From positions 1 through 28,019 of the IMG/VR virus record IMGVR_UViG_3300037137_001021: a stretch of 28,019 bases of DNA. One strand, given 5' to 3'. Below the pieces are notes generated by a model that saw only the letters and a program-made list of their open reading frames with translations, was not told the origin of the DNA and did not search any database. The position numbers were made by a program, and so were the translations under genes. How positions within the stretch are numbered: position 1 is the stretch's first letter; each line of letters begins with the position of its first letter. The DNA is from a virus. Shown here in pieces: positions 4,524 through 22,376 of the stretch.

Positions 4524-5312
4524 TCACTCCTTCACCAGCACGCTCACGCCGACCTTCCCGTCTGCGTGCTTCTCGACCACGTACTTCCAGCGCCCGTCGT
4601 GGTCGGTGAGCGCGTCGCCGACCTTGACGCGGTTTTCCGCCGGCCACTCCGGGCCCATCATGCTCACGAGGCCCCGCGCGTACTCGCGGACGGTCGGCGG
4701 TATCTCCGCCGGGCCGGCGCGTCGGAAGCCCGGATGTGTCGCGCGCTCGTTGTCGGGCCGCGTGGCCATCACCTTGAGCCACCGATCGGCGCGCTCCCAC
4801 TCGCGGTCGGTCGGCTTGCACTTCCCCCCGCTCGCGTAGCTGGCAAACGTCATGGCCACCCGCCGCCGGTCGGCGCGCTGGCCGAGGAACACGCCGCACT
4901 GCTTGGCCTGCGCGATAAGCACGCGGAGGCCGTACTGCGCGCAGAGGTGCGTCTCGTCCGTTCCGAGCCCCACGAGCTTCTCCCACACGTCCTGCGGCAC
5001 GATGCCGGAGCTGTGAATTTGCATCCCACAGCGGGCCAAATGGTGATCTTCGTTCCACAGCGGATGAGGCTCACCCGCGTGCACGCGCTTGTCGAACAGC
5101 GACTCGCCGTGCCAGATGATCCCGCCCGCAGCGGCCAGCTCGGTCAGCGACCAGCCGCTGCCGTTCGCCAGCGTCCGCGCCTCCTCGACCAGCGCGGTGG
5201 ACACCGCCTGCACGCGCGCCTGGTAGTCCTCGCGCGTCTCGCCCGGTGCGTGCGACCCAGGGATCTTCAGTAGCTCCGCGGTGAGCCAACCTACGATGAC
5301 GGCGATCTTCAT
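4524..5312 (-). CDS. Putative endolysin (lysozyme-like)
   Basis: 262 residues. Residues 60-120 (AAAGGIIWHGES..D..VH.GE...LW...HHLARCGMQIH) resemble the catalytic region of phage lysozyme/transglycosylase-like proteins: a Glu (E70) in an ES pair, a following polar loop and a C-x-M-Q-I-H strand. The later stretch (TDETHLCAQYGLRVLIAQAKQCG) fits the next helices of that fold. It would cleave peptidoglycan at lysis, consistent with the nearby holin-like gene. No signal peptide is evident, although residues 1-15 are mildly hydrophobic. Its ATG overlaps the HNH gene stop (ATGA), with AGGAGA in the HNH coding end as ribosome site. The C-terminal 70 residues may be a wall-binding part. The call rests on remote resemblance. 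Confidence 0.5.
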   Translation of the reverse strand: MKIAVIVGWLTAELLKIPGSHAPGETREDYQARVQAVSTALVEEARTLANGSGWSLTELAAAGGIIWHGESLFDKRVHAGEPHPLWNEDHHLARCGMQIHSSGIVPQDVWEKLVGLGTDETHLCAQYGLRVLIAQAKQCGVFLGQRADRRRVAMTFASYASGGKCKPTDREWERADRWLKVMATRPDNERATHPGFRRAGPAEIPPTVREYARGLVSMMGPEWPAENRVKVGDALTDHDGRWKYVVEKHADGKVGVSVLVKE

Positions 5313-18458: not shown

Positions 18459-18497
18459 TTGCGTCAGCCTACGGGAGAGAGCATACCGGCACTCATG
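18459..18497 (+). promoter_or_regulatory. Possible leaderless promoter of exonuclease gene
   Basis: TTGCGT (18459-18464), 17-base spacer, CATACC (18482-18487), seven bases to the ATG at 18495. Weaker boxes than the other sites, but the same geometry. A GGGAGAG in the spacer is too far from the ATG (about 15 bases) to be a good ribosome site. Confidence 0.4.
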
Positions 18498-19460
18498 CGC
18501 AACGCTGCATACGAGACGCTTGTGTCCGCTGACGCGAGCCGCGCCGACTGGCTCAAGGCTCGCGCCGGTCTGATCACCGCGAGCGACGTTCCCACGATCC
18601 TCGGCATCGTGCCCGGCAAGCCGGCGCTCTGGTACGAGAAGGTCGGGATGCTGGAGCGAAAAATGTTCGCGGAGCCGGAGGTGCTCCAGATGGGGCACGA
18701 CTCCGAGCCGTTCAACGCCGAGCAGTACGTGAAGAAAACTGGTCGCAAGGTGAAGCGCTGCCAGGAGCTACTGCGCAGCAAAGCGTACCCCTGGCTCGGT
18801 GCGACGCTCGATTACTGGGCGTGGCTCCCCGGCAAGCGAGGACCGCGCGGGCCGCTGGAGTTGAAGTGCACCGGCAACAAGGATCTGTGGCCCGACGACG
18901 GCGCGCCTGCGCTGAAGTTTCAGGCGCAGCTTCAGACACAGATGCTCGTCTCCGGCAGCGAGTGGGGTTCGCTCAGCGCAATCATCGGCAGCCCGTACAT
19001 GCACCACCGCTGGCTCGATTTCGAGCGCGACGACGCCGGCCTCTGCGATCTGATCCTGACCGAGACGCGCGCGTTCGCCGAGTCGGTACAGGCCGGAGTG
19101 AACCCGCCGGTGGACGGCGACGAGAGCACCAGCGGCGCGCTCCGTAACCTCGTCGTCGAGGTGCTGGCCGGCACCACCACCGTGCTGCCCGAGGCGGCGA
19201 TCGAGTGGGACCGCGAGCTGGTCGCGGCGAAGGAAGCAATCAAGACATGGAGCGAGCGGCAGCGGTTCTACGAGAACCTGTTGATGACGGCGATCGGGAC
19301 GCACGAGGCTGGGGAGCTGCCCGGCGAGGCGGGTCGGTTCACGTTCAAGCGCCAGACGCGCAAGACGTACACGGTCGCCGAGACGACCTTCCGCAAGCTC
19401 CACCGTGTCGCGCCGAAGAAACCCAAGGTAGTGATGACCGGTGGTGAGGGCACACCATGA
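18495..19460 (+). CDS. YqaJ-like phage recombination exonuclease
   Basis: 321 residues. ITASDVPTILGIVPGKPALWYEKVG, MGHDSEPFNAEQYV, then GATLDYWAW (D106), GPLELKC (E122, K124) and KFQAQLQTQMLVSG (Q144, Q148) form the YqaJ/lambda-exonuclease PD-(D/E)XK active site. It should degrade one strand of duplex ends to give single strands for RecT two genes downstream. The C-terminal part (MTAIGTHEAGELPGEAGRFTFKRQTRKTYTV) is typical of phage YqaJ proteins. The ATG at 18495 is preferred over an upstream TTG because promoter geometry points to it. Confidence 0.9.
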   Translation: MRNAAYETLVSADASRADWLKARAGLITASDVPTILGIVPGKPALWYEKVGMLERKMFAEPEVLQMGHDSEPFNAEQYVKKTGRKVKRCQELLRSKAYPWLGATLDYWAWLPGKRGPRGPLELKCTGNKDLWPDDGAPALKFQAQLQTQMLVSGSEWGSLSAIIGSPYMHHRWLDFERDDAGLCDLILTETRAFAESVQAGVNPPVDGDESTSGALRNLVVEVLAGTTTVLPEAAIEWDRELVAAKEAIKTWSERQRFYENLLMTAIGTHEAGELPGEAGRFTFKRQTRKTYTVAETTFRKLHRVAPKKPKVVMTGGEGTP

Positions 19461-19693
19461 GCATCTTTGGCTTCGACCGGCTCACTGAGCTGATTCGCGA
19501 GGGGCTCCGTAACGCCGTCGCCGGGACGGATCTGGTCTGCTTCGGCTGCCTCCGCCCCGACGACACGGTGACCGGCGACGCAGGCGACTTCTCATGTTGC
19601 CACCGCTGCCAGGCGAGCATCACCAGCAAGACGGGCAAGACCATCCGGCGCGCGAGCGCCACCGACAACAGCAACAGCAACCAGGAGGAATGA
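19457..19693 (+). CDS. Zinc-ribbon protein between exonuclease and RecT
   Basis: 78 residues. CFGC near residue 28 and CCHRC near residue 47 form a two-pair zinc ribbon; the tail is polar (SNSNQEE). ATGA overlap with the exonuclease stop. The position suggests it acts with, or is at least co-expressed with, the recombination pair; the function is unknown. Confidence 0.7.
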   Translation: MSIFGFDRLTELIREGLRNAVAGTDLVCFGCLRPDDTVTGDAGDFSCCHRCQASITSKTGKTIRRASATDNSNSNQEE

Positions 19694-19698
19694 ACACC

Positions 19699-20889
19699 AT
19701 GAACCAGCCGAATCCCCAGACCAGCCCCAAGGGCTTGACCACCACCCGCTCGAACGGCGCGCCGCGCGATGCGCAGACCGAGTTTCGTGACGTGCTGATG
19801 AAGATGCGACCGCAGATCGAGGCGGCGCTCCCGCAGGGGCTCGACGCCGGGCGCCTGCTCCGCATCGTGCTCACCACGGTGCGCAAGACGCCCGCGCTCC
19901 TCCAGTGCTCCAGAGAGAGCGTGCTCGCTGGCATCATGCAGGCCGCGCAGCTTGGCCTGGAGCCCGACAGCAACATGGGCCTCGCGTACCTGCTCCCCTA
20001 CGGGCAGCAGTGCCAGCTCATCGTCGGCTGGAAGGGGTACATCGAGCTGGCGCGCCGCTCGGGACTCGTCTCGAACATCACCGCGCACTGCGTGCACTAC
20101 GGTGATTTCTTCGAGTACGAGCTGGGGCTCGACACCAAGCTCCGGCACATTCCCGCCGACGTGCTCGACATGCCGCAGTACGGGCGCGAGCGCGCCATCG
20201 CGGAGGGGATGCGTGGCGAGCAGGTCGTGGGCGCGCTGGCCGGTGGGCAGCGCAAGAGCGATCTGATCGCCGCCTACGCTGTCGTCACCATGAAGGATGG
20301 TGAGAAGCAGTTCCGTGTGGTCACCGCGAAGTTCGTGCAGAAGATCCGCGCCATGAGCCGGAGCGGGAACCACCCGTCGTCGCCGTGGGTCGCGTGGGAG
20401 GAGCAAATGTGGGAGAAAACGGCGGTCAAGCAGGTGCTCCGGTTCGTTCCGCTCTCCCCGGAGGACAAGACGATCATCGAGCACGCCGACGCGGGCCGGA
20501 TGCTGGCGGGGATCGCCGACGTGCGGACGCGGGCCGCGCTCGAAGCGGAGCCGCCGCCCCTGGACGTGGAGGCGGAGGTCGCCGCCAACGCTGCCGTGCT
20601 GGACGCAGCGCCCGCCGCCGACGCGGCCGCACCGGTGACGCAGAGCACGCCCGAGACGCCCGCACCCGCCGCACGGCGAGGTCGCCCGCGGCGTTCCGCA
20701 CCGGAGGCGGCACCGCCCGAGAGCGCTATCTCCGCGCCGCCGCCAGTGATGCGGCCCTCGGCCGAGCCCGTCGCGCCGCCACCGGGACCGCCGCCGCCGC
20801 CGCCAGTGGAGCCGCACCAGGAGGGCCTGTTCGGCAACGACGCCACGGACGATCCGGGGCCGGGACCGGACGAGCTGGCGAACGTGTGA
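19699..20889 (+). CDS. recT: RecT single-strand annealing protein
   Basis: 396 residues. RESVLAGIMQAAQLGLEPDS...AYLLPYGQQCQLIVGWKGYIELARRSG (about 70-118) and later KFVQKIRAMSRSG...PWVAWEEQMWEKTAVKQVLRFVP are the RecT core. The protein anneals and pairs strands made by the exonuclease. After about residue 270 comes a long Ala/Pro-rich linker with poly-Pro, then an acidic tail LFGN....DPGPGPDELANV shared with the next gene. The second ATG (19699) is chosen because AGGAGG is ten bases before it and only one base before the first ATG (19690). Confidence 0.93.
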   Translation: MNQPNPQTSPKGLTTTRSNGAPRDAQTEFRDVLMKMRPQIEAALPQGLDAGRLLRIVLTTVRKTPALLQCSRESVLAGIMQAAQLGLEPDSNMGLAYLLPYGQQCQLIVGWKGYIELARRSGLVSNITAHCVHYGDFFEYELGLDTKLRHIPADVLDMPQYGRERAIAEGMRGEQVVGALAGGQRKSDLIAAYAVVTMKDGEKQFRVVTAKFVQKIRAMSRSGNHPSSPWVAWEEQMWEKTAVKQVLRFVPLSPEDKTIIEHADAGRMLAGIADVRTRAALEAEPPPLDVEAEVAANAAVLDAAPAADAAAPVTQSTPETPAPAARRGRPRRSAPEAAPPESAISAPPPVMRPSAEPVAPPPGPPPPPPVEPHQEGLFGNDATDDPGPGPDELANV

Positions 20890-20895
20890 TCGCCG

Positions 20896-20927
20896 CCCGG
20901 CGGGGGCTCCCGACCGCCCCCGCCGGG
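20896..20927 (+). promoter_or_regulatory. Perfect 11-bp hairpin touching the next ribosome site
   Basis: Arms at 20896-20906 and 20917-20927 are fully complementary (all G/C) around a 10-base loop. The 3' arm runs into the GGGGAG ribosome site of the nuclease gene. It could limit translation, stop exonucleases or slow transcription. There is no U-run. Confidence 0.6.
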
Positions 20928-20937
20928 GAGTCACACC

Positions 20938-21561
20938 ATGGCCTGGCCCACTGTGCCCCTCACCGAGGCGATGCTGCGCGCCGCGGACGAGTACGATCGT
21001 GCGGTCCACGCAAACGCGAACATTCGCAACACCCCGAACTACACGAGCCTGATGGCGGAAGGGCGATTCCGCATCGGGCACCTCGGGGAAAACGCGCTCG
21101 CTTCACTGCTCGCCTCGCTGCGCCTGCGGTACGAGTGGGCGCCGCGCTCCGACGGCCGCCCAGACGGCCAGGACGTGCTCGTGTACCACCGCGGGGTCGC
21201 CTACCCGTGCGAGGTGAAAACCTGCTCGCAGCCGCACCACCGCCACGTCATGCAGCCCCTCGACCAGGGGCGGCACCGTGGCGACCGCGGCCTCATCGTG
21301 GCCGTGCGTCTCAATGAGGAAGCCGGCTACGCCGAGCTGCCGGGCTACGTGAAGTACCGCCGCTTTCTGGAGGCGCCCGTGGTGTACCCGCCTGTGCAGA
21401 GGGTTCGGGTTCCGACGCGCTTGGTGCGACTCGACGCGCTCACGCCGCTGGCGGAGCTGACACGTCACCTCGACCCGGTTGAACCGCGCCGCGATGGCGT
21501 GTTCGGCAACGGGGACTGCGAGGATCCGGGGCCCGGACCGGACGAGCTGGACAACGTGTGA
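20938..21561 (+). CDS. Putative PD-(D/E)XK nuclease with RecT-like tail
   Basis: 207 residues. FRIGHLGENALASLL (E51), GRPDGQDVLVYHRG (D79) and AYPCEVKTC (E92, K94) fit a PD-(D/E)XK nuclease core: helix with Glu, beta-strand Asp, then E-x-K. The order resembles Holliday-junction resolvases and restriction-like nucleases, but the subfamily is not clear. The last 20 residues repeat the RecT tail pattern. It follows recT and probably takes part in recombination or genome processing. GGGGAG lies before the ATG. Confidence 0.65.
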   Translation: MAWPTVPLTEAMLRAADEYDRAVHANANIRNTPNYTSLMAEGRFRIGHLGENALASLLASLRLRYEWAPRSDGRPDGQDVLVYHRGVAYPCEVKTCSQPHHRHVMQPLDQGRHRGDRGLIVAVRLNEEAGYAELPGYVKYRRFLEAPVVYPPVQRVRVPTRLVRLDALTPLAELTRHLDPVEPRRDGVFGNGDCEDPGPGPDELDNV

Positions 21562-21569
21562 TCGCTCAG

Positions 21570-21602: not shown

Positions 21603-21654
21603 ATGGCATAACGCGGCCAAGCCGCGATTCGGTATGTGCGGGCGAACGTGCTGC

Positions 21655-21867
21655 CTGCAAAGCCACCGCGACGGCTGCAAGGGCGCGGCGTGGAGTTCAG
21701 GACCTTCTCCCCGCGCGTCTGCGAACCCTGCAAAGCCACCGCGACGGCTGCAAGGGCGCGGCGGTCATCGGCAAGGACCTGCAAAGCCACCGCGACGGCT
21801 ACTGGGCGCGGCTTCCACGGAGCGGCATCGACTGCAAAGCCACCGCGACGGCTGCAAGGGGCGCGGC
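21655..21867. repeat. Direct-repeat array B (four copies)
   Basis: The gap 21562-22190 contains no convincing gene. It contains four copies of a 22-base core (CTGCAAAGCC then ACCGCGACGGCT) at 21655, 21728, 21779 and 21832. Copies 1, 2 and 4 extend into GCAAGGGCGCGG; copy 3 differs there. Start spacing is 73, 51 and 53 bases, close to 7, 5 and 5 DNA turns, which would place protein sites on one face. Candidate iteron-type origin or operator cluster; a T-rich run (about 21990-22001) lies downstream. Confidence 0.85.
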
Positions 21868-22091
21868 AGGACCTGGCTGAACGCCAGGATCTGACGTGGT
21901 TTCCGCGTGCCACACCACGGCGCCGCGCGTTTCCCGCCCCCCGCAAATGCCCGCTCGGATCGCAACACGGATAACGCTCCGTCACGCTGATTTTTTCTTT
22001 GCGTGCCCATCGCGCTCGCATTCCGTCGCGGCAGCGCGCACTTGCACGGGATCGCTCAGGTGGGCTCGCACCGTGGGCCCGAAGATCGCCG

Positions 22092-22124
22092 TTGACGATG
22101 CTACTCGCGTTTTAGTAGCGATAT
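22092..22124 (+). promoter_or_regulatory. Promoter and inverted-repeat operator of replication block
   Basis: TTGACG (22092-22097), then TAGCGA (22116-22121) 18 bases later. Between them lies an inverted repeat GCTACT-N8-AGTAGC (22100-22119) covering the spacer and the front of the -10 box. This layout fits a repressor site; the ribbon-helix-helix protein encoded 70 bases downstream is an obvious candidate to bind it. Confidence 0.45.
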
Positions 22125-22136
22125 AGACCCTGCGCG

Positions 22137-22158
22137 GGCCGTCGGTGATGCGACGGCC
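22137..22158 (+). promoter_or_regulatory. Leader hairpin before regulator gene
   Basis: Perfect 8-base stem (22137-22144 with 22151-22158) around GTGATG, with further CGCG pairing outside. It lies in the leader about 30 bases before the regulator ATG. It may act as attenuator, protein site or RNA stabiliser. Confidence 0.5.
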
Positions 22159-22190
22159 TGGCGCGGGTGACTCGCACCGGGGAAGGCAAC

Positions 22191-22376
22191 ATGATGCCGA
22201 CGACGAAGAAGAAACCGCCCGACAAATACCACTTGATGGTCATTCTCGACGAGGAGGACCGCCGCGCGCTGGAGGATGCCGCGGAAATCGAGAAGCTCTA
22301 CAAGGCCGACACGATTCGCCGCGCGATTCGCGCCTACGCACGCAAGCTCCGCGCTCAAGTCGCCGCTGCCGGCTGA
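22191..22376 (+). CDS. Ribbon-helix-helix regulator
   Basis: 61 residues. A basic start (PTTKKKPPDK) is followed by a strand (YHLMVILDEED), helix (RRALEDAAEIEKLYKA) and helix (DTIRRAIRAYARKLRAQ), the Arc/CopG RHH layout. Such dimers bind short inverted repeats. It should bind DNA, possibly the inverted repeat at 22100-22119 to control its own operon. GGGGAAGG lies five bases before the first of two adjacent ATGs. Confidence 0.7.
   Translation: MMPTTKKKPPDKYHLMVILDEEDRRALEDAAEIEKLYKADTIRRAIRAYARKLRAQVAAAG

Follow-up and report, generated by a model that had tools for sequence, protein, structure and literature searches.

A C-terminal tail shared by RecT and a neighbouring probable nuclease in one phage clade: a putative docking peptide spread by 3'-end duplication

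The window, i.e., the whole stretch of DNA that was analyzed, corresponds to one virus record in IMG/VR, 28,019 bases long. Its plus strand carries a recE/YqaJ-like exonuclease gene (18459-19460), a 78-aa ORF, recT (19690-20889) and a 207-aa ORF (20938-21561), followed by a small ribbon-helix-helix-like ORF, a 289-aa ORF, a DnaC-like loader and a DnaB helicase. The RecT assignment is firm, as the protein scores 138.7 bits against PF03837 with a curated cut-off of 24. Alignment to its relatives shows an annealing domain (about residues 27-290), a Pro/Ala-rich linker (about 291-376) and a C-terminal tail. The features at the end of recT and in the adjoining gene are:

19690-20889, + strand: recT gene, 399 aa (PF03837, 2.4e-40; phrog_148, 5.9e-69; alignment to relatives)
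20803-20893, + strand: 3'-end direct repeat, copy 1
20818-20889, + strand: RecT tail QEGLFGNDATDDPGPGPDELANV and stop, by direct reading; kept in the relatives L005 and L006, pN/pS 0.17-0.26 among orthologues
20890-20937, + strand: G+C-rich inverted repeat in the recT-nuclease intergenic region, from the sequence and the alignment with L029
20938-21561, + strand: 207-aa ORF, a probable PD-(D/E)XK-like nuclease with tail (GExx..., D79, E92-x-K94; 56% identical relative in L031; body dN<dS)
21475-21565, + strand: 3'-end direct repeat, copy 2, 80% identical to copy 1 (last 43 nt, 93%)
21493-21561, + strand: nuclease tail DGVFGNGDCEDPGPGPDELDNV and stop, by direct reading; kept in L031 as DGVFGDGATEDPGPGPD

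RecT ends in HQEGLFGNDATDDPGPGPDELANV (stop at 20889) and the 207-aa protein in RRDGVFGNGDCEDPGPGPDELDNV (stop at 21561), so that both carry a common acidic tail of about 20 residues. The underlying direct repeat spans 91 nt, extends 4 nt beyond the stop codon (TGATCGC) and encodes G-[LV]-F-G-N-x3-[DE]-D-P-G-P-G-P-D-E-L-x-N-V. Chance similarity is ruled out: the local alignment of the two copies scores 92, compared to a maximum of 32 among 300 dinucleotide-preserving shuffles, and a degenerate DPGPGPDE pattern (at most three mismatches) occurs twice in the window while 0.12 occurrences are expected. The first-pass annotation had described a tail common to both proteins on near-identical DNA that runs past the stop, with otherwise unrelated bodies, and both statements are borne out: RecT belongs to PF03837, while the 207-aa ORF has no match among Pfam, PHROG and NCBIfam models or PDB sequences. 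The likeness of the tails starts slightly further upstream than had been stated (PVEP).

Two further elements lie downstream. Between the nuclease gene and the ribbon-helix-helix-like ORF (21654-21867), a repeat of about 36 nt, CTGCAAAGCCACCGCGACGGCTGCAAGGGCGCGGC, occurs in four copies with start-to-start spacings of 73, 51 and 53 nt. It is absent from every relative fetched and has no Rfam match; the copies are possibly binding sites or a mobile repeat. Upstream of the ribbon-helix-helix-like ORF (21990-22200), a non-coding stretch GATTTTTTCTTTGCGTGCCC...TTAGTAGCGATATAG is conserved in L029 and partly in L031, and is possibly a promoter or operator.

The 207-aa ORF is probably a PD-(D/E)XK-like nuclease, a lead based on motif reading. 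This fold is defined by an alpha-beta-beta-beta core with E, D and (E)xK in that order. GE, D and EVKT/EIKT motifs are kept in this order in the window protein and its relative, and an AlphaFold model places a helix (46-60) and three strands (65-69, 75-84 and 87-92) in the expected succession, but its mean pLDDT of 35 is too low for the model to be usable. The relative was found by a pattern scan for FG-x4-[DE]DPGP in L031 (IMGVR 3300049216_000216); genomes, plasmids and GenBank phages yielded no further ones. Its tail differs from the RecT tails in the same way as that of the window nuclease, with V and E in place of the L and, mostly, D found in the RecT tails. Since L031 carries the tail with these nuclease-type residues, the tail on the nuclease appears to be old, which points to its inheritance along with the nuclease gene. 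As the 17-kb L031 piece has no RecT match (the record is possibly incomplete), the nuclease tail would also be independent of a neighbouring recT copy there.

The RecT side shows the same independence. The RecTs of L005 (77% identical) and of L006/L007 (70%) end in GLFGDAETDDPGPGPDELDNV and GLFGDGGTEDPGPGPEEADVTAAPR, respectively. Those of L005 and L006 keep GLFGDxxT[DE]DPGPGP[DE]E after a linker that has diverged. Judging by sequence reading, recT is followed in L005 by an HNH-type ORF and a helicase-like ORF, and in L006 directly by a small ribbon-helix-helix-like ORF; the RecT tail thus persists next to different downstream genes and does not depend on a nuclease neighbour. L028, a further IMG/VR record, was not counted as independent because it is a fragment of this very virus (100% identical). 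The linker itself carries an AT-hook-like RRGRPRR in the window (20650-20700), with RRPGRPRKG as its counterpart in L005 and none in L006.

Beyond these relatives, the remaining viral RecTs retrieved (32 distinct tails overall, three of which come from this clade) and 16 GenBank phage RecTs all lack the tail, which therefore belongs to one clade. Genome contigs scanned with a RecT profile gave no match. The first-pass annotation had proposed a search for the tail at the C-termini of phage proteins; the search retrieved it in this phage group, while the pattern scans of IMG/VR gave no C-terminal FG...DPGP tail elsewhere. A general phage motif was rejected, as the other matches are internal or in implausible reading frames. 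As a separate observation, an LF dipeptide in acidic context occurs near the C-termini of unrelated phage RecTs (L048, L052, L053 and L072; QDPTLFDEGK, EQQELFN, SPLFADDD), and could be a weak common partner motif.

Selection was assessed on a sample of three RecTs and two nucleases, over 16-19 codons. Among RecT orthologues, pN of the tail is 0.12-0.14, equal to that of the folded core, compared to 0.28-0.42 for the linker (Fisher p = 0.03 and 0.0004). Between the nucleases of the window and L031, the tail has a pN of 0.14 and a pS of 0.83 (5 of 36 replacement sites and 10 of 12 silent sites changed), whereas pN is 0.29 in the body and 0.52 in the 16 codons immediately upstream; the difference is clear against these 16 codons (p = 0.0009) and only borderline against the body (p = 0.05). 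The silent sites of orthologous tails are diverged or saturated while the amino acids are conserved, and the synonymous codons of DPGPGP differ among the window, L005, L006 and L031. In the pairwise counts, the row L005R was left aside owing to an offset of one codon. Because the protein sequence is retained as silent sites drift, the comparison points to selection on the tail peptide, with the DNA word itself unimportant.

The two copies within the window behave differently. They differ at 2.5 of 14.5 silent sites (pS 0.17, compared to 0.44-0.83 among orthologous tails), a contrast that is significant against the nuclease orthologues and not against the closest RecT pair alone, and their pN/pS is about 1. 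Identity is 93% over their last 43 nt, compared to 69% over the 48 nt before these (Fisher p = 0.004), although part of this difference is expected anyway because the right-hand part of the repeat is also more constrained. Given this step in identity and a silent divergence far below that of the orthologues, the data are most simply explained by a recent transfer of the last ~40 nt between recT and the nuclease gene, through copying or gene conversion, on top of an old duplication. The recent 3'-end duplication suggested by the first-pass annotation thus survives as a recent homogenization of the last ~43 nt, but not as the origin of the nuclease tail, which is old. A recent local duplication as the sole cause is discarded since the L031 nuclease also has the tail.

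Two relatives show the tail in altered or captured form. L029, which is the closest relative of the downstream region, has an altered tail at the recT position (GRFG, with one GP lost). This tail stands behind a non-RecT frame at the end of the contig and is succeeded by the same intergenic repeat, as much of the 20890-20937 inverted repeat recurs there. At the position of the nuclease gene (L029:7250-7290, minus strand) lies a nine-codon mini-ORF, MDPGPGPDG followed by a stop (ATG-GAT-CCT-GGG-CCG-GGA-CCG-GAC-GGG-TAA), which holds the tail core only and is probably a remnant after deletion of the nuclease body. In L031, a Myb/SANT-like ORF of 113 aa (4665-5006; phrog_323, 8e-7) ends in PPVAPPKGPPPPTDDPGPGSDGG, which resembles the RecT linker and tail. 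Its 3' DNA matches the recT linker at 28 of 33 nt, and its score of 46 exceeds the best shuffle (41) by a weak margin, given DNA of low complexity. This resemblance at the DNA level is only suggestive, and the ORF may represent a third kind of protein with the core motif. Both cases indicate that the 3' end can move or outlive its gene.

We lean, by somewhat more than an even chance, towards the tail being a putative docking motif of this clade, which would have spread through duplication of 3' ends, been maintained by selection, and bring RecT and the nuclease to one partner. G-[LV]-F-G-[ND]-x3-[DE]-D-P-G-P-G-P-[DE] would be a short linear docking peptide that terminates a flexible or variable stretch, specific to one small phage group and carried by proteins of the recE-recT locus. 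The peptide may bind one common partner, a replication or recombination protein of phage or host, so that RecT and the nuclease would arrive at one and the same site on the DNA, as SSB tails and clamp-binding peptides recruit enzymes. An old 3'-end duplication would have brought the tail to the second gene, and its last ~40 nt would then have been re-copied or gene-converted in the lineage of the window. The docking function proposed in the first-pass annotation gains indirect support from the protein-level conservation of the tail in RecT relatives and the L031 nuclease despite diverged silent sites, and L005, L006 and L031 all keep the tail, so that a loss in relatives, named there as an argument against docking, does not apply inside the clade. 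What counts against it is that the tail is missing from all RecTs examined outside the clade, that the pN/pS of the window copies is as for a freely drifting or converted duplicate, and that the altered tail and mini-ORF of L029 fit leftover DNA better than function.

A rather unlikely alternative regards the recT 3' end as a boundary between modules: genes would be swapped, deleted or inserted there, different bodies would become joined in frame to one common 3' end, and the peptide of the second gene would be a functionless by-product of recombination. Such a boundary agrees with the near absence of silent differences between the window copies over the final 43 nt, stop codon and the next 4 nt included, and with the other genes, or nothing, at the nuclease place in L005 and L006; the best evidence comes from L029, with its tail behind a non-RecT frame and its mini-ORF, and from the Myb-like ORF of L031, within the weak margin of its DNA match. 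Yet orthologues conserve the peptide and not the DNA, most clearly in the nuclease tails, which is unexpected of leftover or boundary DNA. Furthermore, partner contacts in the RecT/Redbeta family are made by the segment that follows the annealing core; in Redbeta, this C-terminal domain is the binding site for lambda exonuclease and host SSB (PMC8303780, PMC9772228). For this reason the docking peptide is favored over the by-product. A broader version of the docking reading, a phage-specific recruitment code in which RecT, the nuclease and perhaps the Myb-like protein share the peptide for a single hub and newcomers capture the 3' end of a neighbour, is still more doubtful.

Two further explanations are improbable. 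The RecT tail could be a sliding-clamp (DnaN) binding peptide, Q-x-G-L-F, acting at the replication fork with the acidic DPGPGP as an accessory. QEGLF, QAGLF and QQGLF do occur in the three RecTs of the clade, and LF motifs near RecT ends are found in 11 of 32 tails compared to 2.0 in shuffles, a count inflated by related sequences. However, the Gln is missing in both nuclease tails (RRDGVF, ESDGVF), the Leu is replaced in L029 (QEGRF) and most of the 16 GenBank RecTs have no such motif; as the nuclease lacks QxGLF, this motif cannot account for the tail that both proteins carry. Slightly less probable still is an SSB-like, self-regulating tail that folds onto the DNA-binding surface of its own protein. 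Its acidity and its terminal position, behind the long Pro-rich linker of RecT, would suit this role, but a precise G[LV]FG...DPGPGP on two unrelated bodies is more specific than charge, and the C-terminal residues vary (ELANV, ELDNV, EEADVTAAPR, D).

If the docking peptide is real, it would be a portable tag to steer annealing proteins, of relevance to recombineering, where partner compatibility limits the use of RecT. It would also show a short interaction motif spreading in phages by 3'-end capture, at a scale below that of domain-shuffling surveys.

Among known systems, the C-terminal peptide of SSB (SSB-Ct) is likewise a short acidic peptide that ends a disordered linker, and the phage tail is similarly proposed to recruit in DNA metabolism. 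SSB-Ct requires a terminal Phe (...DDDIPF). The phage tails, in contrast, have an internal aromatic residue and end variably in ELANV, ELDNV, AAPR or D instead of an acidic tip with a C-terminal Phe, and they are carried by two different proteins. Clamp-binding motifs of the QLxLF type (Gln at position 1, L-F at positions 4-5) have a counterpart in the QxGLF of the RecT tails but not in the nuclease tails, which are without Gln, and the shared conserved core is DPGPGP and not QxxLF. The C-terminal domain of Redbeta/RecT is also located after the annealing core. In Redbeta, however, it is a three-helix bundle, whereas the phage RecT has a Pro/Ala-rich linker and a short tail that is also present on another protein. 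Finally, the survey of fragment shuffling among phage proteins (PMC10684548) considered aligned fragments of 50 aa or more, and the tail, with about 20 aa, would escape detection below this minimum; in both, nevertheless, phage DNA-metabolism proteins that are otherwise unrelated have a fragment in common.
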